Part shown: positions 8,788 to 61,864 of the stretch, piece by piece
Numbering within the stretch: position 1 is the first letter of the stretch
Layout of the letters: every line of letters starts with the position of its first letter
Assembly (NCBI GenBank): GCA_007644065.1
Contig: VJWN01000002.1
Location: forward strand, 893,831 to 957,830
DNA length: 64,000 nt
Origin: Margaritispora aquatica
Taxonomy: Eukaryota > Ascomycota > Leotiomycetes > Helotiales > Discinellaceae
Direction: 5' to 3'
Notes under the pieces: generated by a model
The model's database searches: none
Told to the model about the DNA's origin: nothing
The model's input: the letters and a program-made list of their open reading frames with translations, nothing else
Program-made: the position numbers and the translations under genes

Positions 8788-11394
8788 ATGATCATGATCA
8801 TGATCGGCCGTTTTCTACTTGTAACTTTGTTCGCCAGCTGCGCCGTCGCAGAAGATGGATTAAGCGCTTGGCTCCGCTATGCTCCAATTCCTAATGCCAA
8901 TGCCTGGCTACGCCATCTTCCTACAACAGTCATATCACTGAACACGACTAAAACCAGTCCGGTGTACACAGCAGGAGAGGAGATCAGAGCAGGACTAAAC
9001 GGCATATTTGGTCTGAATGTTACTGTTCAGCATAAACTTCAGAAAGAGTCTAGCAAATGGTCGAAATCGGTTGTCATTGTGGGCACAGTAGATGCTTATT
9101 CTACACAGAAGAAGAACATCCCTGAGTTGAGCGCTGATGGCTTCTACTTCGATAACCGTGGAGCGACGGTCTTGATTCTAGGACAGAATGAGAGGGGAGC
9201 CCTCTATGGCGCGTTCGAGTATCTTTCTCGATTGGCTCAGGGCATTGATACCAAAGTTTCCTACGCTTCAAATCCTGATGCTCCCATACGCTGGGTCAAT
9301 CAATGGGACAATTTGATGAAGGGCGGGACACATGGCAGTGTTGAACGTGGATATGGTGGAAGCTCCATTGTAAGTCCTGTAGTCTTTTTAATACATTTCC
9401 TGCTGACGATGATAAAGTTCTTCTGGGATGGCTTCGTCCGCGATGACCTGACCAAAGTTGCCCAGTATGCACGGATCTTGGCATCCATTGGCATCAATGG
9501 CATAATTGTCAACAACGTGAATGCCAATGCCACTCTTTTGAGCGACCGTAACACAGATGGCCTTGGTCGAATTGCAGATGTTTTCCGCCCTTGGGGTATC
9601 CAAATCGGCGTATCACTGCTATTTTCATCCCCTCGAGACCTGGGAGGTCTTTTAACTTTCGACCCTCTGGATTCGGGGGTTATCTCTTGGTGGCATAATA
9701 TTACCGACCATATCTACACCAAGATTCCTGACTTCGCTGGCTATCTGGTCAAAGCAAACGCCGAAGGTCAGCCAGGCCCACTAACCTACAACCGAACTCT
9801 GGCTGATGGCGCAAATCTATTCGCAAAAACATTGAAGCCTTATGGCGGTATCGTCATGTTCCGCGCCTTCATATACGACTCCAAGACCCTAAACCAGACG
9901 CTCAACTGGAAAGCAGACCGTGCTAACGCAGCTGTTGAGTTCTTCGATGGCCTGGATAGCAAGTTTGATGATAATGTTGTGATTCAGATCAAGTACGGAC
10001 CAATCGACTTCCAAGTACGTGAACCGGTCTCGCCGTTGTTCTCTCATCTTCGTGAGACTGGTTGCACCATTGAGCTGGAGATCTCCCAAGAGTACTTGGG
10101 ACAACAGGCACATGTGGTATATATGGCTCCGATGTGGAAGGAGTCGCTCGATTTCGACCTGAGGGTTGATGGTAAACCTTCTCGCGTGAAGAATATCATC
10201 AATGGCCAGCGATTCAATCAAAAGCTCGGAGGCTATGCAGGTGTGGTCAACGTCGGGACTAACACTACATGGCTAGGTAGTCATCTTGCGATGTCTAATC
10301 TGTACGCCTATGGCCGACTAGCATGGAATCCTGATCTATCTGCTGAGGATCTCCTCGAGTCGTGGACAAAGCTCACGTTCGGCCACGACAGACGTGTCAT
10401 CAACATTATCAAATCCATATCAATGAGCTCGTGGGGCGCTTACGAGAACTACTCGGGCAATCTAGGCATTCAAACCCTCACAAATATCCTTTTGGCTCAT
10501 TACGGACCCAATCCTGCTTCGCAAGATGGCAATCCCTGGGGTCAGTGGACGCGAGCTGATAATGACTCTATTGGCATGGATCGCACAGTGTGGAATGGGA
10601 CGGGGTTTTCGGGACAGTATCCCCCTGAGATTGCAGCGAAATACGAGAAAATCGAGACTACCCCAGATAATTTGCTGCTTTGGTTCCACCACGTGCCATA
10701 CACTCATCGACTCAAGTCCGGCCTGACTGTGATCCAACATTTCTACGATGCCCACTACAAAGGTGCGGCGACAGCCCAGACATATGTGCCTGCTTGGAAA
10801 AGCTTGAAGGGACTGATTGACACGGAGCGATATGAGCATGTTCTGTATCGTTTGATTTACCAAGCTGGGCACTCGATAGTGTGGAGAGACAGCATCAGCA
10901 ATTTTTACCTCAATAAATCCGGGATTCCTGACGACAAGGGCCGCGTTGGCAGCTATCAATACAGAATTGAGGCGGAAGATATGCAGCTAGACGGCTACAA
11001 ACCGTACAAAGTTCTTCCTTTCGAATCAGCATCAAAGGGCGTCTGCATAGTTACATCAACCAATTCCACGCAAAGCACTGCGACTACTACCTTAGACAAG
11101 GTCAAGACTGGAAAGTATGATCTGGCAGTAAATTACTTCGACATGGCAATTGGCAACTCCACTTGGGAATTATATCTTGACAACAGCCTGGTAGGGAAGT
11201 GGAAGGGAGACATCGAGTACAATATGGGAAAAGCTCCAACGCCTTACATTGATGGACAGACCGCCACGAGGATCACTTTTGAGAATGTTAAGGTCAAACA
11301 GGGGGCGGTTCTGAAGGTTGTAGGCACTCCTGATGGCTTGGAGCCTGCGCCGCTGGACTACATATCAATTTTGCCTCTTGGAGTCATCGACTGA
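8788..11394 (+). CDS. aguA: GH67 alpha-glucuronidase, secreted
   Basis: Releases (4-O-methyl)glucuronic acid from the non-reducing end of xylo-oligosaccharides. Exons are 8788-9369 and 9418-11394, 852 aa. The 48-nt intron (GTAAGT...AAAG) has no stop and is a multiple of three, so the unspliced frame stays open; homology wants SSI joined to FFWDGFVRDD, which splicing gives. The start has three in-frame ATGs (ATGATC repeated); the first is used here. A signal peptide follows (GRFLLVTLFASCAVA). Likely catalytic residues by analogy with bacterial GlcA67A are the Glu in KANAEGQPGP (about E310) as acid, and Asp in GPIDFQ (about D391) with Glu in TIELEISQEY (about E413) as base pair. Length matches fungal AguA (about 840 aa). 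Induction by XlnR is plausible from the upstream repeats. Confidence 0.96.
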   Translation: MIMIMIGRFLLVTLFASCAVAEDGLSAWLRYAPIPNANAWLRHLPTTVISLNTTKTSPVYTAGEEIRAGLNGIFGLNVTVQHKLQKESSKWSKSVVIVGTVDAYSTQKKNIPELSADGFYFDNRGATVLILGQNERGALYGAFEYLSRLAQGIDTKVSYASNPDAPIRWVNQWDNLMKGGTHGSVERGYGGSSIVSPVVFLIHFLLTMIKFFWDGFVRDDLTKVAQYARILASIGINGIIVNNVNANATLLSDRNTDGLGRIADVFRPWGIQIGVSLLFSSPRDLGGLLTFDPLDSGVISWWHNITDHIYTKIPDFAGYLVKANAEGQPGPLTYNRTLADGANLFAKTLKPYGGIVMFRAFIYDSKTLNQTLNWKADRANAAVEFFDGLDSKFDDNVVIQIKYGPIDFQVREPVSPLFSHLRETGCTIELEISQEYLGQQAHVVYMAPMWKESLDFDLRVDGKPSRVKNIINGQRFNQKLGGYAGVVNVGTNTTWLGSHLAMSNLYAYGRLAWNPDLSAEDLLESWTKLTFGHDRRVINIIKSISMSSWGAYENYSGNLGIQTLTNILLAHYGPNPASQDGNPWGQWTRADNDSIGMDRTVWNGTGFSGQYPPEIAAKYEKIETTPDNLLLWFHHVPYTHRLKSGLTVIQHFYDAHYKGAATAQTYVPAWKSLKGLIDTERYEHVLYRLIYQAGHSIVWRDSISNFYLNKSGIPDDKGRVGSYQYRIEAEDMQLDGYKPYKVLPFESASKGVCIVTSTNSTQSTATTTLDKVKTGKYDLAVNYFDMAIGNSTWELYLDNSLVGKWKGDIEYNMGKAPTPYIDGQTATRITFENVKVKQGAVLKVVGTPDGLEPAPLDYISILPLGVID

Positions 11395-12306: not shown

Positions 12307-15300
12307 TCAAGCCCTACTTACTTCCACCCTCTCTACATATTCCAATCCGCCCTTAATAATTGCAACATCGTCGTACCGCGCAAATACAATATCCCGCCTC
12401 GCTAATCCACAGATAATGTCTCGAGTACCAGAAAACCAATCGTACGGTACGAAGAAGTGCCGTGAGTATGAAATAACGCTGCCGAAAGTACTCTCAAGGC
12501 TTGCGGAACATACCCATGAGTCTCGGTCAAGGAAGACAAGCATCCCGTTTTCGCTGATGCCGATGATGTGAGAGACGTAGTCGGCTAGGAAGTCGATTTG
12601 CGAGCGTATTCGTGGCTTCAAAATTATGCGTGGAATAGGTGATTGGTGGGGAGCGATGACCTCTCTGGTATTAGTAGAATCATTATTTTGAATCTGTATG
12701 GCGCTGTTGCTGATCTCACTGTTTAAGAGAGCAACATCGATAGAGTATAATTCTCGCGTGTTCGCCGAACCGTTTAATTCGGACATTTCTAGTAGAATTT
12801 GTGGCTTGCACTCCATTATGAATGGAGAGATAGATTTCAACTGTAGCCCCTCGACATCGATGTCAAGACAAAAACAAGCAATTTCCGACCAGTCATCCCA
12901 CAAGTAGATCTTGGCATATGCACCATCAATGCAGATGATGTGAAGTGGTGAGTGTGGATGCTGAATCCATTTTCGAATCTTAGGCTTCGCTAAGCATCCA
13001 AGCACCTTTTCTTCTTGACCGGTGATGTTCCACAAGTGGTCTGATTCACGAGTCGAAAGGATGAACTTACCGACCGCCTCGCCTGATAACACTTGGGTGA
13101 TGGTACTGCTGCAATCAAGACGACACTGCAACAGCTGCGTGCCGAGTTTCCAGCTGTGTTTAACCTGTTGCACTTTCCATGCAAATATGGTATTGGATGT
13201 GTCGACACTCATTACCACATTAGTCGATGGCCACCAGGTTAGAATGCGAACGAGTGATTTGTGGCAATAGAGTGTGCCCATCTGGACACCGTTCCTCATA
13301 TTGTAGACAGAAACCGAGCCGTCTTCCTTGCCGCAAAATACTACCTCTAAATCTTGGTGCAAAACCATGGCACTAATCCTAACCCTGCTATCATATGAGA
13401 TTGCCTCCACAACAGACGTTGATGGGTCCTCGCTGCTATCATCACCAACTATGTCACGCAACAGAACTGACGGCTCCCAGACATTGCATTGAGAGCCTCT
13501 GATATCCATAAAATGGAGACCATCTGGACTGAACGTCAGTTGCTTGATGTAGAAGTTGGATGATTTAACCCTGTAGAGTAATCGTAAAGTGTCAAATTCG
13601 TACACGTGGATGATTCCAGAGCCCGCACCTCCTGCAAGCAGGCGACCATCCGAGCTGGCAGCGAGGGTATGACAGTCTGCCCGGAAACTACACCGATCTT
13701 GATCATTGAAGGGATCAAGAACCGCAAGTTGCCCATCCAGATAAGATACAGCCAGAAGTCCAATATTGACGTTGGGATTGAAGACGAGAGCAGAGATGAC
13801 ATGTGTGCTGGTATCACCGTTGGACAATTTTTTGCCACAGTTGCCATAGAATATGTCTCCGGCAAGGTCCCAAAGTAATATTGGCTTTCCGCTGTAAGCT
13901 ACGGCCAGCATTTGATGGTTTACAGATATTGATATGGCACATGGTCGCTGGCGAAGTTGCGTGGTCGTCTGGTGTGGGGAATCGTTCCATGATCTGTCCG
14001 GCTTCCGTGCCCCATCATTATCCAAATCCCATGTTGCTAAGCTGTTTTGATGCGACGCAGCCATTAATAAATTTTGGTCAAAGGCCAAACAGATGGGGCG
14101 CTGGGGGGCCTGAAAGCTGTGGACCATTTCGCCCCTACGAATGTCCCATATTCTTATATTCTTCATGCCACAGGATGCCATAAGATCGGATTTTCCCTTG
14201 AATTGCAAGAATTTAACAGCCTCGCCATGGTTGAGACTCCTATACTCCTGGTAAGATGCTGCATGGTACAGATTGATTGTCCCGCTTGTGAGGCCAATTG
14301 CCAAAAACTGGTCACCAGCACTGATCGCACTCGTCTGACCTTGGTTGAAGTCAATGCAGGATATTCGATCATCCCACTGACAGTTTGAAAGTCCTAATAT
14401 TGTAAGCCTTCGTCCATTGTTGGCTATTTTGTATACTGAAGACGCTGTGGGACAAAATGGAAGAACCAGAGAATAGATCGCGGCAGGTGACAAAACAAGT
14501 GCGTCTCCAAATTTAGCAGTGATGCGAATGAAATCTGTGGCCCAGCCTCTGATGAGTGATAGCTCTGTGCTGACGAGAGATTGTTCCGTGGAGCATGCAT
14601 TGAGATATGATCGGAAGTGCTTTGCAACGCAGATAAAAAGTATGAGGTCTCGTGTCTGAGCGATGACCTCTATCCACGACAAGACATTGAGTTTGAGGAA
14701 CTTGTTCACATGAGACAAAAGGTCATTTGAGCGGGGATCGGCATTAGCTAGATGGTATGAAAACTTTAGACAAGCGTATTGTGAAAATTGTCCTCTCTTT
14801 AGGGCGATGCTAGATCGACATCTGCCAGTTCGGGGCGGCTTCATCTCATCCCCAGTGAGGTATACGAGACATGTTTTTGCAATTCGGGTATGTGCCTCTA
14901 TTGGCTTGATTGCAAGCTCAGAATTCAAGTTCGCATCCAAAAGAAATTCTCTGGCTGTCTCATGGACCATCTGAATCCTTTCAAATCGATCAGTGGCTAC
15001 TAGTTGCCCACAGAGCGCTGTAATGGTTTGCTCCAGTCCATGAGAAGTTTCAATGTCCTCTAGTTTGAGCGCAATATCAAGCTCCGTCAAAGACATGGGT
15101 CTAGTCGCACATGTTGCCCAAATCAGTATGGCGCGAGCAAGCCCACGTCCATATATGTTCTGTGACATAGTGTATATAGTCCGCTGGTACCAAGGCTTCA
15201 TATTGGAAGGCACATCATTAAGGACCTGGTTGATATCTTCCTGACTGTAACATTTGGACAACTCATTGACGACCAAGACTGCCCAAAGAAATGTCCCATT

Positions 15301-17120
15301 TGACTTTCGCAATATTTTTTCCACTAGAGCAGTACGGTCATCGTTATTTTGGAGACGAAAGGCTTTGGCCTTGGATTGAACAAAGAGCTTGATGTCCGGA
15401 AGGGTGTCTGCCGTTGAGATCTGTTGGAGTTGGTATCGACGGGGGCTGAGGCTTTTGAAATTCTCTTCAAGGTCTCCAGTGATTCGGCTGGCGATAAAAA
15501 CTCGCAATGGTACGGAAGACTCGAGATTGTCCAACATAAGATCAAATAGAGCTTGTGGGTTGGCACATTCATCCAATGCATCAATAATCCAGTAATGACC
15601 AGAAAATTTCGTCTTGAAAATACCGGAAAGAAATAATTTGCGCCAAACGGTACGCTCATTGTCCCTATCGAACTCGATATTATCCCTCTGCATCTCTAGC
15701 AACTTTTGGCAAACTGCAGGATCAGAGCAAGCCATTTGGAAAGCCAAATACCTCAGACAGGTACCTAGTCGTGATTTAGATGTATCTCCATACTTAAAGA
15801 AGAAGAAACTGCAATTTTCATTCTCATTTCGCAGATGATCAAAAGCATAGCCTGCAAGGATCGATTTCCCAGCGCCTGGTTTTGCGCCTATCCACAAAAC
15901 AGTCGGAGCTGGTTGCTCAAAGTTCTTCCAATCAAGGAAGGCACTTTTGTTTGAGAACCATTCACATGTCCCGGATAATCGTGCCTCCTGCGCAGAAGCT
16001 AGATCACTATCGAACTCATCCAACACTCCTAAATAGCTTTTGAGATCCTTTAGCTGGCTATGCCGTAAATCTTGCCGAGATGTCCGCACTGCTGACTTTT
16101 TAGTGGAATAAACGAATCAAATCCAGGATGGGCTATAACTACCCATCTTTGATATTTTAATAACGGTAGTATCAAGAGAATTGCGAAGAATCTGATAGTT
16201 GGGATCCGCTGTTGAGTCAAACTTGCAGATTGAGCGATGATCGGCATTCATGAGCATCTGTTTCTCATCGCGGAAGCCCATGACTGCTGAGTTCGGCGGG
16301 ACAATGATTCGGCTGAAGATTTTCCCCATGCGGAGGGGCAAAGTCTCGTAAAAGGACCAGAGATCGAGGTCTCGCTCATAGTTGCGAAAGTCATCGCTGA
16401 TGGTTTGAATAGTACTGGAGTCTCGTTTGAGCTCTTCGACGTATTCGCGCGGTATCGAGGCGAAATGAAGAATATCGCTTAAGAGCTTGGCAGAGTCGGA
16501 TCCACTGTGCGGAGTGGCAAGAAAGTAGATTGAATGTACGCGGTTGGCTAGCGACTGGTAAGAGGCACTCTGTCTTGCTAGATTGTAAGCCTTTTTAATT
16601 ACCAAACCTCCCATACTGTGCCCGATAAGTACTATTGGTGTATCCGCATCTCTCAAACATGGCAGTGTGCTCATCTGATCCAAAAGAGATTTGCCAAAAT
16701 GACGTATGTTCAGGAAATTGACCTTGCCTTTTGCCCAGTTCGAATCGTATCCGAAACTGTGTATTCGTACATTTTTGAAATCTAGATCTTCAGGAAGCCA
16801 CTCCTGTGGCCAAAAGTCTTTCACCCAAGCCGTCTTGCTCCACGTCTTTCTCGATCCACCGCCGAGGCCATGAACAAAAATGAAGTCAATAAGAGGATCT
16901 GCCGGCGCATATAGAAGGTTAAGACCGAGAGGTCCATTTGGATCTATGGCAAGAAGTTCGTTATGTTTGGCACGCCCATCGAGAAGCAAAGAACCAGGGG
17001 GAAATCCATGGGCTGAGCCGACATGTGGGATGGGCAATTCATTATCTTCGCGTTGAGAAACACTAAATGATTAGCGAGAATCAAAGATAGGGGTATCCAC
17101 AAACACTCTTACGACATCAT
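12307..17120 (-). CDS. STAND/NLR protein: alpha/beta-hydrolase - NACHT - WD40
   Basis: A fungal NLR-type receptor of the class implicated in allorecognition and response to other organisms. The 5' part has no plain ATG in its long frame. A 50-nt intron (GTAAGA...CTAATCATTTAG) joins a tiny first exon (17120-17113) to 17062-16143, and a second intron (16142-16089) leads to 16088-12307: 1569 aa, phases consistent. Residues ~45-300 form an alpha/beta-hydrolase (FVHGLGGG, nucleophile motif GHSMGG, S152) like SesB/DUF676 domains. The P-loop is GAKPGAGKS (~377-385), followed by a NACHT-type WIIDALDEC. From ~residue 900 come WD40-like repeats that are degenerate, not the near-identical repeats of HET-E types. 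The second acceptor has an alternative 3 nt away, and a GTAAGT just before the stop may mark a further intron. Confidence 0.88.
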
Positions 17121-46264: not shown

Positions 46265-49200
46265 ATGAATGTCAACAAACGTTCCGGCCCGGGACTCGGA
46301 TCCGTTGCTACCCGACATACCACTTCGATTGATGTCGCAAGAAACACCAAGACAACCATTGCTCTTACTCTTGCTGGTCAAAAACGAACTTACAATGAGT
46401 TCCGAGCCCCCTCAGAGAATATCATAGCACCGGTCACCGTTACGAATGAAGCAATCCAGAGAGATTTCCATCGACCATCTCTCAAAGCAAGCTGTTATCA
46501 ACCACTGCAAGCTGGTGACATTCGGAATTTTGTCACTTCTAATCATGCACCTTCACAGTCAGAGTACACGCAAAGAAAGGCGTTAGCTTTAACTCCATCA
46601 GGAACGGCAAATCCTCTGCTTGATTTGTCGCATGCGTCGTATGCACTACCGAAGAAACTGGTCCAGAACTTTGCGAGTCTTGGCATAAAATCCATCTATC
46701 CATGGCAATCGGATTGTCTACTGCGGAGTGGTGCTTTAGAAGGACGAAAAAATCTTGTCTACACCGCTCCAACAGGAGGTGGTAAATCTCTCGTGGCTGA
46801 CATCCTCATGCTGAAGAAAGTAATTGAGGATCCCGAGAAAAAAGCTTTGCTTGTTCTCCCATATGTTGCTCTCGTGCAAGAGAAATTGCGATATATCAGG
46901 AAAGTAGTCGATGGGATAACTAAGGATTTCGATCCTCAGAATCAGCCGAATGCTAACCGTCGATCACATATTTACCGCAATCGAGGCGATGAAAACTCGG
47001 TGAGAGTTGTTGGGTTTTTTGGAGGGAGCAAATCAACAGCCACGTGGAGGGATATGGATATTGCAATCTGTACAATAGAAAAGGTATATCTTTGCTACTC
47101 GGTTCTAGAGCGTTTCTTTAACCTCTAGTTAGGCAAATAGTTTGGTCAATGCATCTATCGAGGACAAAACAATCGGCAAGCTTGGGATAGTAGTCATGGA
47201 CGAGTTGCACATGATTGACGACGAAGCTCGTGGGTATATTTTAGAACTTATGGCGACAAAACTGCTGAGCATCGGTGAGGAAGTGCAAATAATGTAAGCT
47301 GATTTCACTATGATGACCTTGTAGAATGTTAACATAATCGACTAGCGGAATGAGTGCCACTTTGAATGTAAGTGCCTCAAATCATGATTGAGATGATGGA
47401 CTGACTAGAGTAAGAATGCCAGTCTCCTTGCCACTTGGTTAAACGACGCCAAATTTTACATCTCAAAATACAAACCCGTTCCGGTCGAGGAACATCTAGT
47501 CTTTGATAATGCAATTTATCCAGCATCCAGTGCGAAGTCATTTTTCCAAACCGCGGCTCAGCTTAATTCACAAGCTTCTTGTCATACTCAAGCTGAGACG
47601 GAGTCGAAGAACACTCTTGATCCAATCAAGATCATTCAACAATCACCTTGCAAGGAACTCAATAGTCCTTTGGTCAATGCAGTTATTTCGCTTGCAAATG
47701 AGACGGTGCGAGCTGGCTATGGCGTTTTAGTTTTCTGTAGCAGCCGTGTAGGCTGTGAAAGGGATGCAGCATTGTAGGTCTCCTTCTTCAATACTTCTTG
47801 CTTGTGGTGATACTACCTCTATGTCGATATTTTGTTATGTGATATATATTTTCTTCCTGGCACCATAAGTAGAATCGCCCACTAACAACCTCTTCTTACA
47901 GAATCAGCCAGGTTATGCCTCGTCCAGAGGAAGTCGACGCTTTCCTCATGGAAAAGCGTGTGGATTTACTGAATGATTTGAGAAGTACAACTACTGGGCT
48001 TGATTCTATGCTTGAGAAAACGGTTCCAGTTGGCGTCGCATATCATCGTAAGCTCGCTTGTCTTCGTCGGTTGGATGATCTTGTGCTAACGTTGATAATT
48101 TCAGATGCAGGTCTAACTACAGAAGAGCGAGATCTCTTGGCAAGCGCTTACGATAACGGCATTTTGAAAGTCATTGTAGCGACCTGTAGTCTTGCTGCAG
48201 GAATTAACTTACCCGCAAGGCGGGTAATTCTCCATGGCGCGAGAATGGGGGCAGATTTAGTTGGACCAGCAATGCTGTGAGTGAGCCCAAATCATCAACT
48301 AATAAGACATTACTGATTTCATTTCAAGTCGACAAATGCGAGGGAGAGCTGGTCGAAAGGGGAAGGATGAAATTGGCGAAACATACCTGTGTTGTCAGAA
48401 AAGCGACCTTGAAGCTGTTGCGGAGCTTATGGAAGCAGAAATTCCAAGCGTGGTCAGTTGTTTGGTCCCTGAAAAACGTGGAATTAAACGGTAAGATACA
48501 TTTTCTCTACCGAATTTCATTCAAGCTTATAAATCCAGTGCTCTACTAGAGGTTTTAGCTACAAAACTTGCCAACAGCGATGATGCACTAGACGATTATG
48601 TCAAAAAGACTCTCCTCTATCATTCAATGAATCGCGATGAGCTCTCATTGATGGTCAAGGATACATTAGAAGATCTCATTCAAGACGAGCTCATTCAGTG
48701 CGTGGATTCTGAGTATACTGCGACATTGATGGGTCAAGCAATCGTTGCATCGTCCTTAACTCCCGAGGATGGATTATTCGTACACCGAGAATTATACAAA
48801 GCATCACAAGCATTCGTCATGCTTGGAGAAATCCACGTCTTGTACGCATTCACGCCAGTGCAAGCTGCGCAAGGAATCGTAAACTGGCAAGTTTTCCGCA
48901 AAGAGGTGGAACGGTTAGATGAGCACAACATGCGGGCACTGAGCTTCATCGGCCTCAAACCCACCATTATCAACAAAATGTGAGTACTAACCCCTTTTTT
49001 TCTCCTTTCCACCTCCTACAGCCAGTCAGACTAACATAAGACAGGGCCCAAGGCGGCAAAATGCCAGAAACCACCCCCTCCGACCTCGAAACCATCCGTA
49101 TCTACCACCGCTTCTACGCCGCCCTACAGCTCCGCGATCTCTGCAACGAAATGCCCATCCACGCCGTTGCCACCAAATACGACATCGCGCGCGGATCCGT

Positions 49201-49609
49201 CCAATCCCTCTCACAAACCTGCCACGGCTTCGCAGCCGGCATGATCAAGTTCAGCAAGTGCATGGACTGGGGTGCTCTGGCTTCCGTGCTAGACCACTAC
49301 AGCGACCGACTCAAGGCGGGAGCTAAATCGGACTTGCTGTCCCTGGCTAAGATCACGCACATCAAGAGCCGCACCGCGCGTGTGTTCTGGGAGAATGGCT
49401 TCAAGACCGTTGCGTTGGTAGCGGCGGCGAGCGTGCAGGATATCGTGCCTGTCCTGTTGCAGGCGCAGCCGAGGAAGATTCGTACGAGTGGGTATGACGA
49501 GGAGATGTTTTTAGAGAAGTTGGTCGCGAAGGCGGAGGTGATCTTGGACAGCGCGAATCGCATTTGGGAGATGGAGGTTAGGGCTGAGATGGATGCTTGG
49601 GAGGAGTGA
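46265..49609 (+). CDS. HELQ/Mus301-type superfamily 2 DNA helicase
   Basis: A 3'-5' repair helicase of the HEL308/HELQ/POLQ group, expected to act at stalled or broken replication forks. Nine exons: 46265-47083, 47133-47293, 47346-47367, 47415-47773, 47902-48047, 48105-48276, 48329-48490, 48539-48979 and 49045-49609; 948 aa, all phases consistent. Motif I is TAPTGGGKS (~167-175), motif II DELH (~296-299), motif III MSATL (in the 22-nt third exon), then FCSSRVGCERDA, YHHAGLTTEER and the motif VI block LRQMRGRAGR, which is restored by splicing. The C-terminal helical and ratchet regions follow. There is no polymerase domain, so it is HELQ-like rather than full POLQ. The ATG at 46265 is the first in frame. 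Confidence 0.93.
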
Positions 49610-49907: not shown

Positions 49908-49959
<52 letters not shown>

Positions 49960-50695: not shown

Positions 50696-50863
50696 TCACA
50701 AGATCGTGCAACTGCTGCACAGACCCTCTTTGTCCTTCTCATCATGCTCATGTGTTTTTGGTTGTGGCTTGGCCTCCACTGGTTTTGATACCGTTTCCTT
50801 CTTGCTTTCTGCACCGTTTCCGTTCACCGCTGGCGCCGCTTCCTTAGGGGTGCCATCTAGTCA
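50696..50863 (-). other. Predicted stop-codon readthrough extension ending in CaaX box
   Basis: The reductase stop reads TTT TGA CTA GAT: UGA followed by CUAG, the best documented leaky context in fungi and animals. The same frame then has 54 sense codons (50860-50699) and ends at TGA (50698-50696). The extension starts LDGTPKEAAPAVNGNGAESK, is rich in Lys, Glu, Pro and Ala like a flexible linker, and ends EGLCSSCTIL. The last four residues are a CaaX motif with Leu, which favours geranylgeranylation, and the Cys three positions before the CaaX cysteine could be palmitoylated. Readthrough would give a 257-aa membrane-anchored isoform. An alternative, splicing from GTCAAC in exon 5 to the TAG before ATGGC, keeps frame but would delete conserved core. 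Confidence 0.7.
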
Positions 50864-51791
50864 AAATGTGACCTTGCTGATAGCCTTGCCGAAGGACTCG
50901 CCCTGGATGGTGGCGATTTCGAGCTCAAGGGCAGTTGGTTGACGGGATCCGTCGGCAGCCTGTGATTTGATTGTCAGTTACCACTCAATCGATAGAGTAT
51001 GTATGTGTATAGGAAGAGAGGCCGAAGACTTACAGCAAAGGTTCCAGCACCCCATGGAGAACCACCGTGAACCTCAGAAAGGTTGGCGAGCTGACCGAAC
51101 GAGGTGGCGTATCCGAGAGGAACATAGATGATACCGTGGTGAGTCAAAGTTGACATGGCAGCCAAAGCAGTGCTCTCCTGTCCACCTCCCTGGGTACCGG
51201 TCGAGATGAAAATACCAGCGTACTTGCCCCAGTAACCTCCTGAACCCCATTGTCCACCGGTGGAATCCCAGAAGGCCTTCCATTGTGCTGGGAAGTTACC
51301 AAAACGGGTTGGGATGCCGAAGAGGAAAGCATCGTAGGATTCGAGGGTCTTGGGGTCAATGACTGGGTATTCGGACTTGGCTGGTGCGTGCATCTGTGGG
51401 TGGCATGTTAGTGTTTTTGTTGGATTGTGATGGGAGCAGGTTTTGGGAAAGTGAAAGATGGAATCTACCTTGGTCAGGACTTCCTCGGGGAGAGTCTCTG
51501 CGACTTGGAAGATGTCGGCGGTGATGCCAACCTTGGCAAGACCAGCCTTCTCGGCCTCAGCGACTGGGAGAGAGTCAATATCAATTTATTCGTGAGTGAT
51601 GGATGAGCTACTAACGTTGCTTGATGTGGCCATACATGGAGTACTATAAGATGTTAGCTTCATATTCGTTGTTCCGATCTCTGAATAGCTTCAAGCTTGG
51701 TATTGCAGAAATCACATGAAGCTGTGTTCTAGAGGGCTAACATGGCGGGGTAAAAGTGACTTACGTAGACGATTGCGACCTTTGGAGCCAT
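50861..51791 (-). CDS. WrbA/Pst2/Ycp4-type flavodoxin-like NAD(P)H:quinone oxidoreductase
   Basis: Two-electron quinone reductase with FMN, protecting against semiquinone stress. Five exons: 51791-51765, 51643-51616, 51563-51469, 51393-51034 and 50959-50861; 202 aa. Features: [16 protein letters not shown] (flavin phosphate loop), the family block [44 protein letters not shown], and a final core block ending [13 protein letters not shown]. The normal soluble form stops at TGA (50863-50861). That TGA is followed by CTAG and a further 54 open codons, described separately. Short exons 1 and 2 (27 and 28 nt) are supported by restored motifs and CTAAC-type branch sites. Yeast Ycp4 is a longer, membrane-associated relative with a C-terminal extension. 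The core annotation is secure. Confidence 0.93.
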
Positions 51792-52864: not shown

Positions 52865-55800
52865 ATGATTCTCTCTCCTCACTACATGCGAGCCGTGAAA
52901 CCTCGTCGACTGCTTCATCTACCAAAACGACATCTTCAAATACTTGGTCGTCGATATCAAACGCGTCCACGAGTACACGATGGATCACATCTACTCGCAT
53001 CTCGGGTATGCCAACCCCAGAGCAGAGGAAAGAAGACTAAGTCCTCCATAAAACTCGATGACCTTCCCCAAGGCGTTATTCCCTTGGATCCTCTTCCATT
53101 GGAAGAGAAACCACCAGGGCTACCCACCGTGCTGGCACAAGCCAGAAGCAATATGCTTAAATTTGAGAACTGCGTGCTTCTCACCCGAGTTGGTGGGTTT
53201 TATGAGCTGTATTTCGAACATGCGGATGAGTTGGGACCGTTGTTGAACCTCAAGGTTGCGGACAAAGCGATCCAACCCAAGGGGACTTGCGTGTCGATGG
53301 TATGGCCTTTCTTGCTCAATATGATCTAAACATAACACTAAGATGATACAGGCTGGATTCCCATTCTTCCAACTGGATCGATATCTGAAAATCTTAGTCC
53401 AAGATCTAAATAGATACGTTGCCATTGCTGAAGAATTCCCCAATGATGCATCTGATAAGGTCAAGGCGGGAGGATTAATGCACGACCGCCGTGTCTCACG
53501 CATCATCACGCCTGGCACCCTTATTGACGAGAATTTCATTGATCCATTTAGCAACAACTATGTACTTTCCATACATATAGATCATCTCGATCCAGAGGCC
53601 GGACAAGCCAGTCTCACTCCAAGCCAGCAGCAATCTCTACCGGTTGGTCTTGCTTGGTTGGATTTATCCACCGGCCATTTTTTCACGCAGTCTACAACGC
53701 TATCAGCATTGCCTTCTTTCCTTGCTCGCGTCGCGCCATCTGAGATCGTATTGGATGAGGATCTGCAAGCCTCGAAAGACCATGGGATTTTCACTGTCCT
53801 AGCCGAAGATCACCACCTCATAAATTACACAACACCAGGAGAAATTCGACCTATTGTCGAATGGACATCTATGCTTGAATCTCCTCTTTCAAGTCAAGCG
53901 ATCGAGGCGTTCACCTATGAAGAGATTGCAGCAGGCAGTTGTCTCTTGAAGTATGTTGAGACTCGACTTCTTGGCTCAAACATGAAACTCCAACCTCCCG
54001 TACGGCAATTAGATATGATGGGTATAGACAAGAACACAATGCGAGCACTTGAGATCAAGAAAACCATGAGAGACGATGTCGTGACGGGCAGTTTACTACA
54101 TATAGTTCGACGAACTGTCACCAAGGGTGGTGCGAGACTACTTGATAGTTGGCTGAGTAAGTATTCCTTTGGTCAGATCGATATTACTCTAACAGAAACA
54201 GGCTCGCCCTCAACGTCATTAACAGTAATCAACTCTCGACTCGACCTAGTGACACATACGCTCACCAACACTCTTCTCCGCGAACGAATTATAACCCTCC
54301 TCAAACGCACCCACGACTCGCACCGACTCCTCCAAAAGTTCGCCTTTGGTCGTGGCGACCCAGACGACCTCCTCGACCTCGCTAAAACCATAACCGCGAC
54401 TCAAGACCTCATCTCCACTCTCCAGACCGACTCGTCACCCTCTTCATCTTGCATCACTGCCCTCCTCTCTCGGACCTCACTCACCGGTCCATCTGCCCTC
54501 GCCAAAAAAATCACCGCCGCCATCGACGAAGACGGCATCCTCCAACACCAACACATAGCCGAAGCCGAAGCAAGCGAGATGCAAGCGCTCGCCACAAGCA
54601 TCGTAACCCTCTCCGGCACGCCAGACGACACACGCATCCTGCCCAAAGGTGTTCGGAAAAAGAAACAGCCCACCGGCATCCGAGACGCATACTTCGTCCC
54701 CGACGACGCCTGGATCATGCGACCCGGCGCCTCACCCATTCTCACGCGCCTACACAAGGAGCTCGCTTCCCTCCTCGCCTCAAAGCAGAGCCTGGAGCGA
54801 GATCTTGCCATCCGGCTAGGCGCTGAGAGCTTGACGCTCAAGTTTACCCCAGGAATGGGGCATATATGTCACCTGAAAGGCAAGGACGTCAAGATCGACC
54901 TGTCCTCCATATCAGGAGGGACGCTCCGCTCCGTCGGAGCAAGCAAGTCGACGCGATCGTTCCATCACCCTGAGTGGAGCGCTTTGGGACAACGCATCGA
55001 TCACTGTAAAGTACACATCAAGAGTGCTGAGATGGCAGTTTTCCAATCGTTGCGTGAGGAGGTGATAAGGAACATCATTGCATTGAGACGCAATGCCGCT
55101 GTGTTAGCGGAGCTGGATGTAGCGTGCTCGTTTGCAACGCTTGCGGAGGAGAAGGGCTGGACTCGTCCGATCTTGAATAATGGTATCGCGCACAAGATCA
55201 TTGGGGGCAGACATCCGACTGTTGAAGGTGGATTGGAAGTCGAAGGTAGAACTTTCGTCAGTAATGACTGTTTCGTCAGTGGGAGGGGCAGCGGTAGCAG
55301 CAACAACACTCAAGCCCCAACACAGACACAAACACAAAGCCAATCCATATGGCTTGTCAGCGGCCCGAATATGGCAGGCAAGAGCACATTCCTACGCCAA
55401 AACGCACTTATCACCATCCTCGCGCAAACAGGGAGTTACGTGCCGGCCTCCTTCGCCGAGCTCGGGATCGTCGACCAAATCTTCAGCCGCGTCGGGAGCG
55501 CAGACAACCTGTACAAAGACCAGAGCACGTTCATGGTTGAGATGCTCGAGACGGCCGCGATCCTGCGGAATGCCACAGAGCGCAGTTTCGTCGTCATGGA
55601 TGAGATTGGGAGGGGCACGACGCCGAGTGATGGCGAGGCGGTGGCGTTTGCGTGTCTGTCGCATTTGTATTGGAAGACGGGGTGTAGGACGCTTTTTGCG
55701 ACGCATTTTCATGGGTTGGTGGATTTGGTGGAGCAGGAGGGTATGGCAGGTGTGGGGTTTTGGTGTACGGATGTCAAGGAGGATGAGAGTGGTGATGGGT

Positions 55801-55937
55801 TCAGGTATGTGCATAAATTGAGGGAGGGGGTGAATCGGAGGAGTCATGCGCTGAAGGTTGCGAGGCTAGCCGGTATGCCTGAGGAGGCGATTGCGGTTGC
55901 TAAGAGGGTGTTGGAGGGGGACTTAAAGGGGAAGTGA
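52865..55937 (+). CDS. msh1: Mitochondrial MutS homologue MSH1
   Basis: DNA mismatch-binding ATPase that maintains mitochondrial DNA. Exons are 52865-53299, 53352-54156 and 54202-55937; 991 aa, close to yeast Msh1 (959). The N-terminus has Arg/Lys and Leu but almost no acid (MRAVKPRRLLHLPKRHLQIL), a typical mitochondrial presequence. The mismatch-contact motif GGFYE is at ~111-115. The second intron is only 45 nt, a multiple of three and stop-free; homology wants WLSSPSTSL, which splicing gives. The ATPase has SGPNMAGKST (~800-809), Walker B FVVMDEIGRGT (~877-886) and the ATHFH block (~914-918). A Gln/Thr/Ser-rich insertion sits just before the P-loop. There is no sign of an MSH2-6 nuclear role. 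The start could also be the ATG 21 nt further on. Confidence 0.94.
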
Positions 55938-59752: not shown

Positions 59753-61864
59753 CTAGTTTATATGTCCAACATCCAGTGGATTTCTCCTCCTCCTCTCCTC
59801 AGACTGTTGGTTTGCAATTCTCCCATTCCAATGCTCAACAACGTCAGCAGCCGTATCAGCAGCTTTCGTGCCTTCAGCTCTCTCGACCAAGTCCAACGTC
59901 CACGCCATCCTCTCCTTAGGAACCCATTTGCCTTCTCTAATCTTGCTCACTATGCCAGATTTCGTGATCGCACTCGTGAGAGCTGGACTTAGAGGTGCGC
60001 CGTGTCTCCGAAGATGGTGCACACATTGCTCAACATGGCGAAACGCTACCCGTGGTAGACGTTTGGAATGTGCGAATGTTATTGCCATGTTAGTGATCAT
60101 CTTGACTGTCGTAGGTGAGAGCTTCTTGTTTGAAAATGCGAACCGCTTTTGGCGAGCCATTGCCTCGTAGAGAGGTATACCCATAATTTTCCAAATAGTT
60201 TCCGGTTTGATACTAGGATCTTCAATCATTGCAGTAACAAATTTGGGACACAGTTCGAGTCGAAGAGGGGCAAAGTTGAGCTTCTTCGAGAAATATAGGT
60301 AATACAGATCCAATGCCAACTGAGCATCGAATTTGCCCACGCTCTCGATGATAGGACCCATGATGTCTGCCGGTAGATTTACATGCGCATTGTGCATTCG
60401 AACAGCAGTCTGGTAAATCATGCGCTGCTTGCCCAGATTATCGAATAGAAGTATAAGTCTCCTTAGTCTTGTCCAGCACATGTCTTTGTGTTTGTCCACG
60501 GCGCATAGCAGCGTCGCTATATCTCTGTGTCCTGTGGAAGCTACCATCATCTCAAACGTGCCTCTAACAAATGCGGCGTTCTTTAGATAGCTTTGACTAA
60601 CCCACTGGTCAAGTACAAGGCCACTGAAGAATGACGATTCTATAGAGCATGTCGTCCTTTTCAGAATACTCTCAAATTCCTGATCCCTAATAGCAGGAAT
60701 TCGCGCGACTAAGGTCAAAAAATGAAGCTGTAGTATTTCGTTTGTTTTCTCTATGCCACCGAAGTTGTTGTTCACAAAATAGTGTGCTGTAGATCGGAGA
60801 ACACTACGCACCATGGGATCTGGCAGGTAACTTAACAATTTCCCCAGGTTAGTGGTTGGTGTTGCTGTAGAACCCATGGTATATTCCTTGGTATGCATTG
60901 CCTTTTCCTTTTGGGTAATCTCCGAGCTATTCGACATGGCGAAATGTGACACAGAATACTCGTAGGCCCTCGGTCGCCCATCGTGAAGCATTGTTCGAAT
61001 CCAATTGACCACGAAACGATCGATGCTATCCTTGAGATGAGTCAATTGAGTGCTTGAAGCGGCACGTATCACGCTAGACCCCAGATCTTGGGAGGCGGCA
61101 TTCATCGGGAGATCGCAAATAAGGCCGAGGAGTCTGTTCAGGGTCTTGCCGTGTAATGTATCGGATCGAATCACTGTACAAGATTCGACGCCAATCCACA
61201 TGGCTTGGTACAGTTGGAGGCAGAGTGAATAGGCTTCCATTCGACTATTGGCATGGTCCATAATTGCTTCCGGAGCTGCCTTGAGCACATACTTCAAGGT
61301 TTCCTCTGGTAATATCCCAAGGTTGAGGCTTTGTCGGATGCGTCGAATAAAAGTATCTATAATGAGAGAACTGTCTCCCAAGGACGTTTCCAGCTCCAGA
61401 CAGAAAGCTGCGACTTCCTCCGCGCGGAAAGACAGCCTTTTCCTCCGATCTCTCGCATGTATTGTGACCACGGGAACAGTTTTGTCTTCCTTCGCAGGCT
61501 TCGTCCATTCCAGCAACCAAGAAGGTAGAGCTTTCTCCGCCGCCTCGATATTTGGCAGACGTGCTGTAGGTGCCTCCCATTGCCATTGGGTCCTATCCTT
61601 CTCTCCAAACCACCCTCTAAACATCCCAGGATCAAAGACCGGCATAGAACTCGCGTCTGATTGCAAGGTCATCCGTCTCTTGCCCAGCCGTCGCCGGCTC
61701 TCCATAGGTCCTGGCACGAAGCTCCCATATCTTCTCCCAACCTTCGACCCTCTGGAAAATTGCTGGAAAGCCTGCTGTACAGCTTGGTCGGAGATCCATA
61801 TCGAGTCTGTCGGCGAGAGCAATTGTCGCTGCACTGCTCTCCGGCAGGCAGGTTGGGGGAGCAT
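59753..61864 (-). CDS. Uncharacterised 703-aa protein, probably mitochondrial
   Basis: A single uninterrupted ORF from ATG 61864 to the stop at 59753. The N-terminus is Arg/Gln-rich with few acids (MLPQPACRRAVQRQLL), suggesting mitochondrial import. The remainder is predicted by eye to be mostly alpha-helical, with many short amphipathic segments and basic character. The pattern recalls the helical-repeat (PPR-like) organelle RNA proteins of fungi, but I could not identify clear 35-residue repeats, so no function is assigned. The C-terminus (RRRRNPLDVGHIN) is strongly basic. It is divergent from the haem biosynthesis gene and convergent with Trm82 (154 bp between stops). Confidence 0.8.
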   Translation of the reverse strand: MLPQPACRRAVQRQLLSPTDSIWISDQAVQQAFQQFSRGSKVGRRYGSFVPGPMESRRRLGKRRMTLQSDASSMPVFDPGMFRGWFGEKDRTQWQWEAPTARLPNIEAAEKALPSWLLEWTKPAKEDKTVPVVTIHARDRRKRLSFRAEEVAAFCLELETSLGDSSLIIDTFIRRIRQSLNLGILPEETLKYVLKAAPEAIMDHANSRMEAYSLCLQLYQAMWIGVESCTVIRSDTLHGKTLNRLLGLICDLPMNAASQDLGSSVIRAASSTQLTHLKDSIDRFVVNWIRTMLHDGRPRAYEYSVSHFAMSNSSEITQKEKAMHTKEYTMGSTATPTTNLGKLLSYLPDPMVRSVLRSTAHYFVNNNFGGIEKTNEILQLHFLTLVARIPAIRDQEFESILKRTTCSIESSFFSGLVLDQWVSQSYLKNAAFVRGTFEMMVASTGHRDIATLLCAVDKHKDMCWTRLRRLILLFDNLGKQRMIYQTAVRMHNAHVNLPADIMGPIIESVGKFDAQLALDLYYLYFSKKLNFAPLRLELCPKFVTAMIEDPSIKPETIWKIMGIPLYEAMARQKRFAFSNKKLSPTTVKMITNMAITFAHSKRLPRVAFRHVEQCVHHLRRHGAPLSPALTSAITKSGIVSKIREGKWVPKERMAWTLDLVERAEGTKAADTAADVVEHWNGRIANQQSEERRRRNPLDVGHIN

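Follow-up and report, generated by a model that had tools for sequence, protein, structure and literature searches.

In the available text of the papers cited here, a UGA stop codon followed by CUA marks several metabolic enzymes, among them fungal TPI and PGK and human LDHB and MDH1, in which readthrough adds to the cytosolic enzyme a small, C-terminally targeted fraction (PMC4207609, PMC3798809). UGA CU is described as sufficient for efficient readthrough in Ustilago and acts in HeLa cells also, with A and then G at the following positions being favourable or frequent (PMC4207609), and fungi use both readthrough and alternative splicing for their peroxisomal enzymes (PMC3798809). The stop codon that we describe here has the same UGA CUA (G) context on an enzyme, but in place of the peroxisomal PTS1 of those isoforms there is a CaaX membrane box, at the end of a 54-codon extension.

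The enzyme family itself offers a second point of comparison. C. albicans has four flavodoxin-like quinone reductases, Ycp4 together with Pst1-3, and its Ycp4 has a C-terminal extension of ~90 aa that ends in a CAAX box (PMC4556627), and Ycp4 of S. cerevisiae undergoes palmitoylation (PMC7943015). In the Ycp4 case a gene of its own encodes the tailed protein, and the available text mentions no stop ahead of the tail, whereas here a single gene would give both forms, split by a stop. Bypass of a stop to reach a lipidation signal also has parallels outside fungi. A table of 2013 lists a readthrough extension of Drosophila Syx17 for which a farnesyltransferase signal is predicted, with a positive PhyloCSF of 290.83 (PMC3840789, Table 2), although this is an animal gene and a prediction only, against a fungal enzyme here. 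The hepatitis D large antigen is a second form of its protein that gains a farnesylated CXXX tail through stop bypass, but in a virus and by ADAR1 editing of a UAG, in contrast to the ribosomal readthrough proposed here (PMC10459925). Human readthrough extensions have been screened for prenylation sites, with the result not stated in the available text (PMC4359377).

We analysed a window of 64,000 nucleotides from Margaritispora aquatica (the whole stretch of DNA under study; contig VJWN01000002.1), in which a five-exon gene on the minus strand (51791-50861) encodes a 202-aa quinone reductase of the WrbA/Pst2/Alt a 7 type (Table 1). The joined protein scores 208.7 bits against TIGR01755, for which the curated cut-off is 132.5, and is thereby assigned to NAD(P)H:quinone oxidoreductase type IV (WrbA/Pst2/Ycp4 family), the activity itself being predicted. 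It matches the yeast Pst2 structure 5mp4 with an E value of 8.4e-77, its relatives in fungi go by the names Alt a 7, WrbA or benzoquinone reductase, and the closest named relative among the matches listed, Leptodophora P0013, is 91% identical. No second WrbA-type gene was found in the genome, where flavodoxin matches at other places miss TIGR01755, and this one reductase gene would thus have to serve both compartments. The gene converges on the end of a PolQ-type helicase gene (POLQ_helical, DUF7898; 48627-49609, plus strand), with a CA/TG dinucleotide repeat at about 49910-49955 in the intergenic gap between the two, and a MutS-family gene (53343-55937, plus strand) forms its other flank.

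Table 1. Coordinates, within the window, of the quinone reductase gene and its putative readthrough extension.
Feature	Position	Strand	Remark
Exon 1, with quinone reductase start codon	51765..51791	-	next intron starts GTAAGT
Exon 2	51616..51643	-	
Exon 3	51469..51563	-	
Exon 4, bulk of flavodoxin-like domain	51034..51393	-	
Exon 5 through first stop, terminal ...GKAISKVTF*	50861..50959	-	
Candidate leaky stop context TGA CTA G	50857..50863	-	high-readthrough context in PMC4207609 (available text)
Putative 54-codon readthrough extension LDGTPK...CSSCTIL	50699..50860	-	open frame, tail profile, read-through-frame relatives P0022, P0121, P0122
CaaX box Cys-Thr-Ile-Leu	50699..50710	-	
Second stop TGA, immediately 3' of CaaX box	50696..50698	-	

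At the end of exon 5 the minus strand reads ...AGC AAG GTC ACA TTT TGA CTA GAT GGC..., with the TGA at 50863-50861, and so presents the features of the UGA-CUA readthrough genes, namely UGA, then CU(A), then the favourable G. A first-pass annotation, made from the letters alone, had placed a TGA-CTAG stop after ...SKVTF, followed by a frame open for 54 codons that closes at a TGA after CSSCTIL and would yield an extended form of 257 aa; the strand reads exactly so, the frame and its closing stop fall where Table 1 gives them, and 202 + 1 + 54 residues add up to that length. Its description of UGA CUA(G) as a high-readthrough context likewise agrees with the available text of PMC4207609. The extension, LDGTPKEAAPAVNGNGAESKKETVSKPVEAKPQPKTHEHDEKDKEGLCSSCTIL, within which lies the peptide ETVSKPVEAKPQPK, ends in CTIL and thus in the C-terminal Cys-a-aliphatic-X of CaaX prenyl proteins. 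No stable RNA structure was found 3' of the stop (z 0.97 over the 100 nt from the stop), which rules out such a structure as a readthrough stimulator. Selenocysteine at the UGA was set aside, as fungi are without the machinery according to the available text of PMC4207609.

From these features and from the homologues described below, we consider it probable that one gene and one mRNA give rise to a soluble reductase and to a minor, prenylated and membrane-bound readthrough form. Most ribosomes would halt at the UGA, giving the soluble NAD(P)H:quinone reductase of 202 aa, and a small fraction would decode the UGA in its UGA-CUA-G context as an amino acid and go on to add the 54-residue tail, a charged and probably flexible linker that leads to the CaaX box. 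As a rule, a CaaX box with a final Leu is a substrate of GGTase-I, and the last residue of CTIL suggests geranylgeranylation by this enzyme, while a second conserved Cys just upstream of the box may be palmitoylated. The lipid would bring this readthrough product to a membrane, where it could reduce lipid-phase quinones as would the CAAX-ended yeast Ycp4. Prenyltransferase sequences are present in the genome, with PF00432 matches at three places; compared with solved structures, two of these look like fragments of an FTase-beta-like gene (4l9p, 3.9e-64) and a GGTase-I-beta-like gene (1n4p, 7.8e-13). When translations were judged by eye, no CTA codon followed the stop of PGK, TPI or one GAPDH (contig 2), and these genes thus provide no in-genome positive control for the use of readthrough; the PGK frame past its stop ends in SEL, and the TPI and GAPDH frames have no SKL-like end.

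A homologue search returned 5993 proteins at E <= 1e-10, of which 120 were used, and a tail search with residues 172-257 of the long homologue P0022 as query kept 38 of 68 candidates at E <= 0.1; combined, the two match lists hold 135 distinct proteins. With residues 195-257 of the window's own extended form as query there was no match at E <= 10 among 14 candidates, because its linker has diverged and the GLPxx stretch is absent from it. Among the 135 listed homologues, 24 have GPCGLP near the C terminus, in tails of the form GPCGLPxxC-a-a-X, a criterion that would miss tails as altered as that of the window. Another 89, of 180-230 aa, lack GPCGLP and are short forms, which leaves 22, namely 21 longer proteins (388-447 aa) and P0069, a long model with a different tail. 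Every one of the 89 short homologues terminates in [VILA]x[FL] plus 0-2 residues, which is the place of the window's stop, and the position of this stop is therefore old.

The tails end in a narrow choice of residues. In 24 of 24 a Cys stands two residues past GPCGLP, at the CaaX place; the penultimate residue is Ile in 17 and Val in 7, and the last is Leu in 13, Gln in 10 and Ile in 1, counts that are not independent given that Fusarium P0131, P0133 and P0134 have identical tail ends. To judge by these sequences, such limits are the constraint expected of a prenylation box. The sources of the listed relatives include Botrytis, Sclerotinia, Rhynchosporium, Lachnellula, Hyaloscypha, Halenospora, Penicillium, Fusarium and Glutinoglossum, genera that we take to fall in four classes (Leotio-, Eurotio-, Sordario- and Geoglossomycetes). 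DNA of fungal relatives was absent from the contig matches (best 80 of 228 loci, with titles that are all bacterial; no match among viral contigs). The first-pass annotation had named a frame and CaaX end conserved past the stop in relatives as the evidence to look for, and had proposed a soluble and a prenylated membrane product of the same gene: the conservation is there at the protein level, in 24 of 135 homologues and in four of them in the read-through frame itself, and it supports the dual product, with readthrough and lipidation both remaining predictions.

The four that carry the read-through frame are environmental sequences (P0022 and P0122 from JGI, P0121 from Logan and P0127 from ENA), the other 20 long forms being genome annotations. 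All four have a Trp at the normal stop position and run straight on from it, and in P0022, P0121 and P0127 a second Trp follows directly on the CaaX box: they read VNFA-W-LDGSSSE...CAVL-W-DIND (P0022), VNFA-W-LAEGSAKE...CTIL-WK (P0121), VNFGSSA-W-LDGSKAE...CTVL (P0122) and VNHQ-W-IHGSD...CNII-W (P0127). A translation table with TGA as Trp gives just such a Trp at the stop and another after the box, which makes UGA at both sites the natural and likely reading of these proteins, with UGA deduced from Trp and CUA from Leu, although the Trp of P0122 could be a true TGG. Going by the protein letters, the stop is followed by Leu in P0022, P0121 and P0122 and by Ile in P0127, and the W-LDG of two of them matches the window's TGA-CTA-GAT-GGC (*LDG). 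P0022, on a contig of 1349 nt, aligns from the start Met without inserts at any of the intron positions of the window gene, and is for this reason most likely the cDNA of a spliced mRNA that retains the stop. The others begin in or contain intron-like sequence and are probably genomic, so that they carry no information on splicing and P0022 alone bears on the mRNA.

We regard UGA-CUA readthrough that adds a prenylation signal as the best explanation of these sequences, although two details sit less well with it, the Ile, rather than Leu, after the stop position of P0127 and the window tail itself, which is shorter than the conserved form, is without GLPxx and reaches only 12.8 bits against a profile of its relatives. 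A frame that is open by chance and has its CaaX end by chance is one alternative, for which the length of the frame gives some room: at least 54 open codons follow 224 of the 2429 TGA triplets in the window (both strands, any frame, coding DNA included), 4-13% of Markov sequences show a 54-codon open frame, and an open frame of this length is by itself unremarkable. The conjunction of context, length and CaaX-like end is rare, however, as CTAG directly follows only 3 of the 2429 triplets, at least 54 open codons with a CaaX-like end follow 3 of 2429 with the quinone reductase stop included, and this stop is the sole TGA in CTAG context with at least 54 open codons in the window. The first-pass view that a random 54-codon frame with such an end is unlikely thus stands for the conjunction and falls for the length. 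The homologues weigh more: similar tails lie at the equivalent place in 24 relatives, and the profile score of the window tail (against 22 tails, that is, the 24 without two of the three Fusarium entries, and with the window tail left out) is reached by only 2 of 2000 residue shuffles. The window tail keeps KDKEG, the two cysteines and CTIL, and its end, CSSCTIL, stands against CGLPxxCaaX in the 24. Judged by these homologues the tail is not chance, an origin that we consider hardly credible. That same absence of GLPxx, present in all 24 motif-bearing relatives, would suit a relic, in which an ancestor made the long form only, a stop arose and the frame persists because this was recent; the stop is old, being shared by all the short homologues, and yet the CaaX end is conserved in genera of what we take to be four classes, which makes a relic very unlikely. 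Recoding of the stop from UGA to UGG by A-to-I RNA editing would give the Trp that the environmental readings have at the stop, and its outcome has a precedent in the hepatitis D antigen (PMC10459925). The second Trp after the CaaX box in three of the four, however, accords with a TGA-as-Trp translation table and not with editing confined to one site. In fungi, A-to-I editing favours an A that follows U, whereas here the A follows a G, and we give editing scarcely any weight.

The main rival to readthrough is alternative splicing, in which a small intron starting at about the Val codon after the last Lys would remove the stop and its retention would give the short form. Of the 20 genome-annotated long forms, 19 lack some or all of the usual VxF end, as would follow from removal of an intron (for Fusarium, where no short form was seen, the gap is deduced from the lack of VxF alone), and 11 of these 19 continue straight from the Lys in front of the Val. 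Fungal PGK and GAPDH use alternative splicing for the same purpose, according to the available text of PMC3798809. In the window itself there are 11 in-frame GC-AG options, with donor GCAAGG, and, with introns of at least 32 nt enumerated, 15 in-frame GT-AG introns would remove the stop; the latter, however, have only GTCAAC, GTCCTT and GTCACA as donors, unlike the gene's own GTAAGT, GTTAGT, GTAGAT and GTAAGT. The annotated introns also look doubtful on comparison with one another. Halenospora P0050 is without exactly 13 residues (39 nt) of the otherwise near-identical P0121, from which it differs in the compared part by one residue and by the absence of the block VNFAWLAEGSAKE. For an intron in these fungi, 39 nt is very short, and it equals the lower bound of a common gene predictor; the missing 13 codons look like a prediction artefact. 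The Sclerotinia models are cut differently, after EEF in S. sclerotiorum and after SK in S. nivalis, Lachnellula hyalina P0069 has a tail that resembles the conserved one translated in a shifted frame, and P0022, the only cDNA-like long form, keeps the stop. Splicing is on this evidence unlikely, though it may operate in some relatives, and we hold readthrough to be probable and go no further because just one of the four environmental forms is mRNA-like and GC-AG options exist.

Some deposited models call for separate mention. Lachnellula suecica P0029 is the only annotated long form with GPCGLP that has a full INFA and runs straight on (INFA-TAGGKG); it could represent a species that has lost the stop or another model artefact. 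Clarireedia is annotated as a short form beside the long-form Rutstroemia. Models with short introns that skip the stop (P0050, P0079, P0111, P0069 and others) and short-form models both seem to hide a dual product, and if readthrough holds, deposited fungal models of this reductase family may stop short of the true end or contain doubtful introns.

Syx17 is not an enzyme, and among the matches listed in the open-licence papers we found no conserved readthrough of a fungal enzyme that adds a lipid anchor, nor, in the open-licence PMC literature, any title among the matches listed on readthrough of a fungal flavodoxin-like protein. The first-pass annotation had called a lipid anchor added by readthrough a new use of the mechanism: this may hold for a conserved case in a fungal enzyme and has to be toned down in its general form, as the signal predicted for fly Syx17 in 2013 is, as far as the available text goes, the nearest printed precedent that we found (PMC3840789). 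The enzyme readthrough isoforms in the cited papers add peroxisomal signals, and a conserved lipid-anchor case, if true, would widen the uses of leaky stops; it would also mean that one gene with a leaky stop can replace a separate gene such as Ycp4 beside Pst1-3. It is quite possible, though we put it forward tentatively, that UGA-CUA readthrough is an ancient switch of filamentous ascomycetes by which one quinone reductase gene supplies a cytosolic and a prenylated membrane pool, for which yeasts have the separate Ycp4. An oxygen-responsive membrane share of this oxidative-stress enzyme is possible too, because a link has been drawn between oxygen-dependent ribosome hydroxylation and termination at stop codons that have C as the next base (PMC4207609, available text).

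Elsewhere in the window, 8788-11394 (plus strand) encodes a glycosyl hydrolase of family 67 that has the N-terminal, middle and C-terminal domains, and a 703-aa open frame at 59753-61864 (minus strand) has no Pfam match at E <= 0.001. An NPHP3_N domain protein with WD40 repeats lies at 12307-16089 (minus strand), presumably the architecture of fungal NOD-like receptors.
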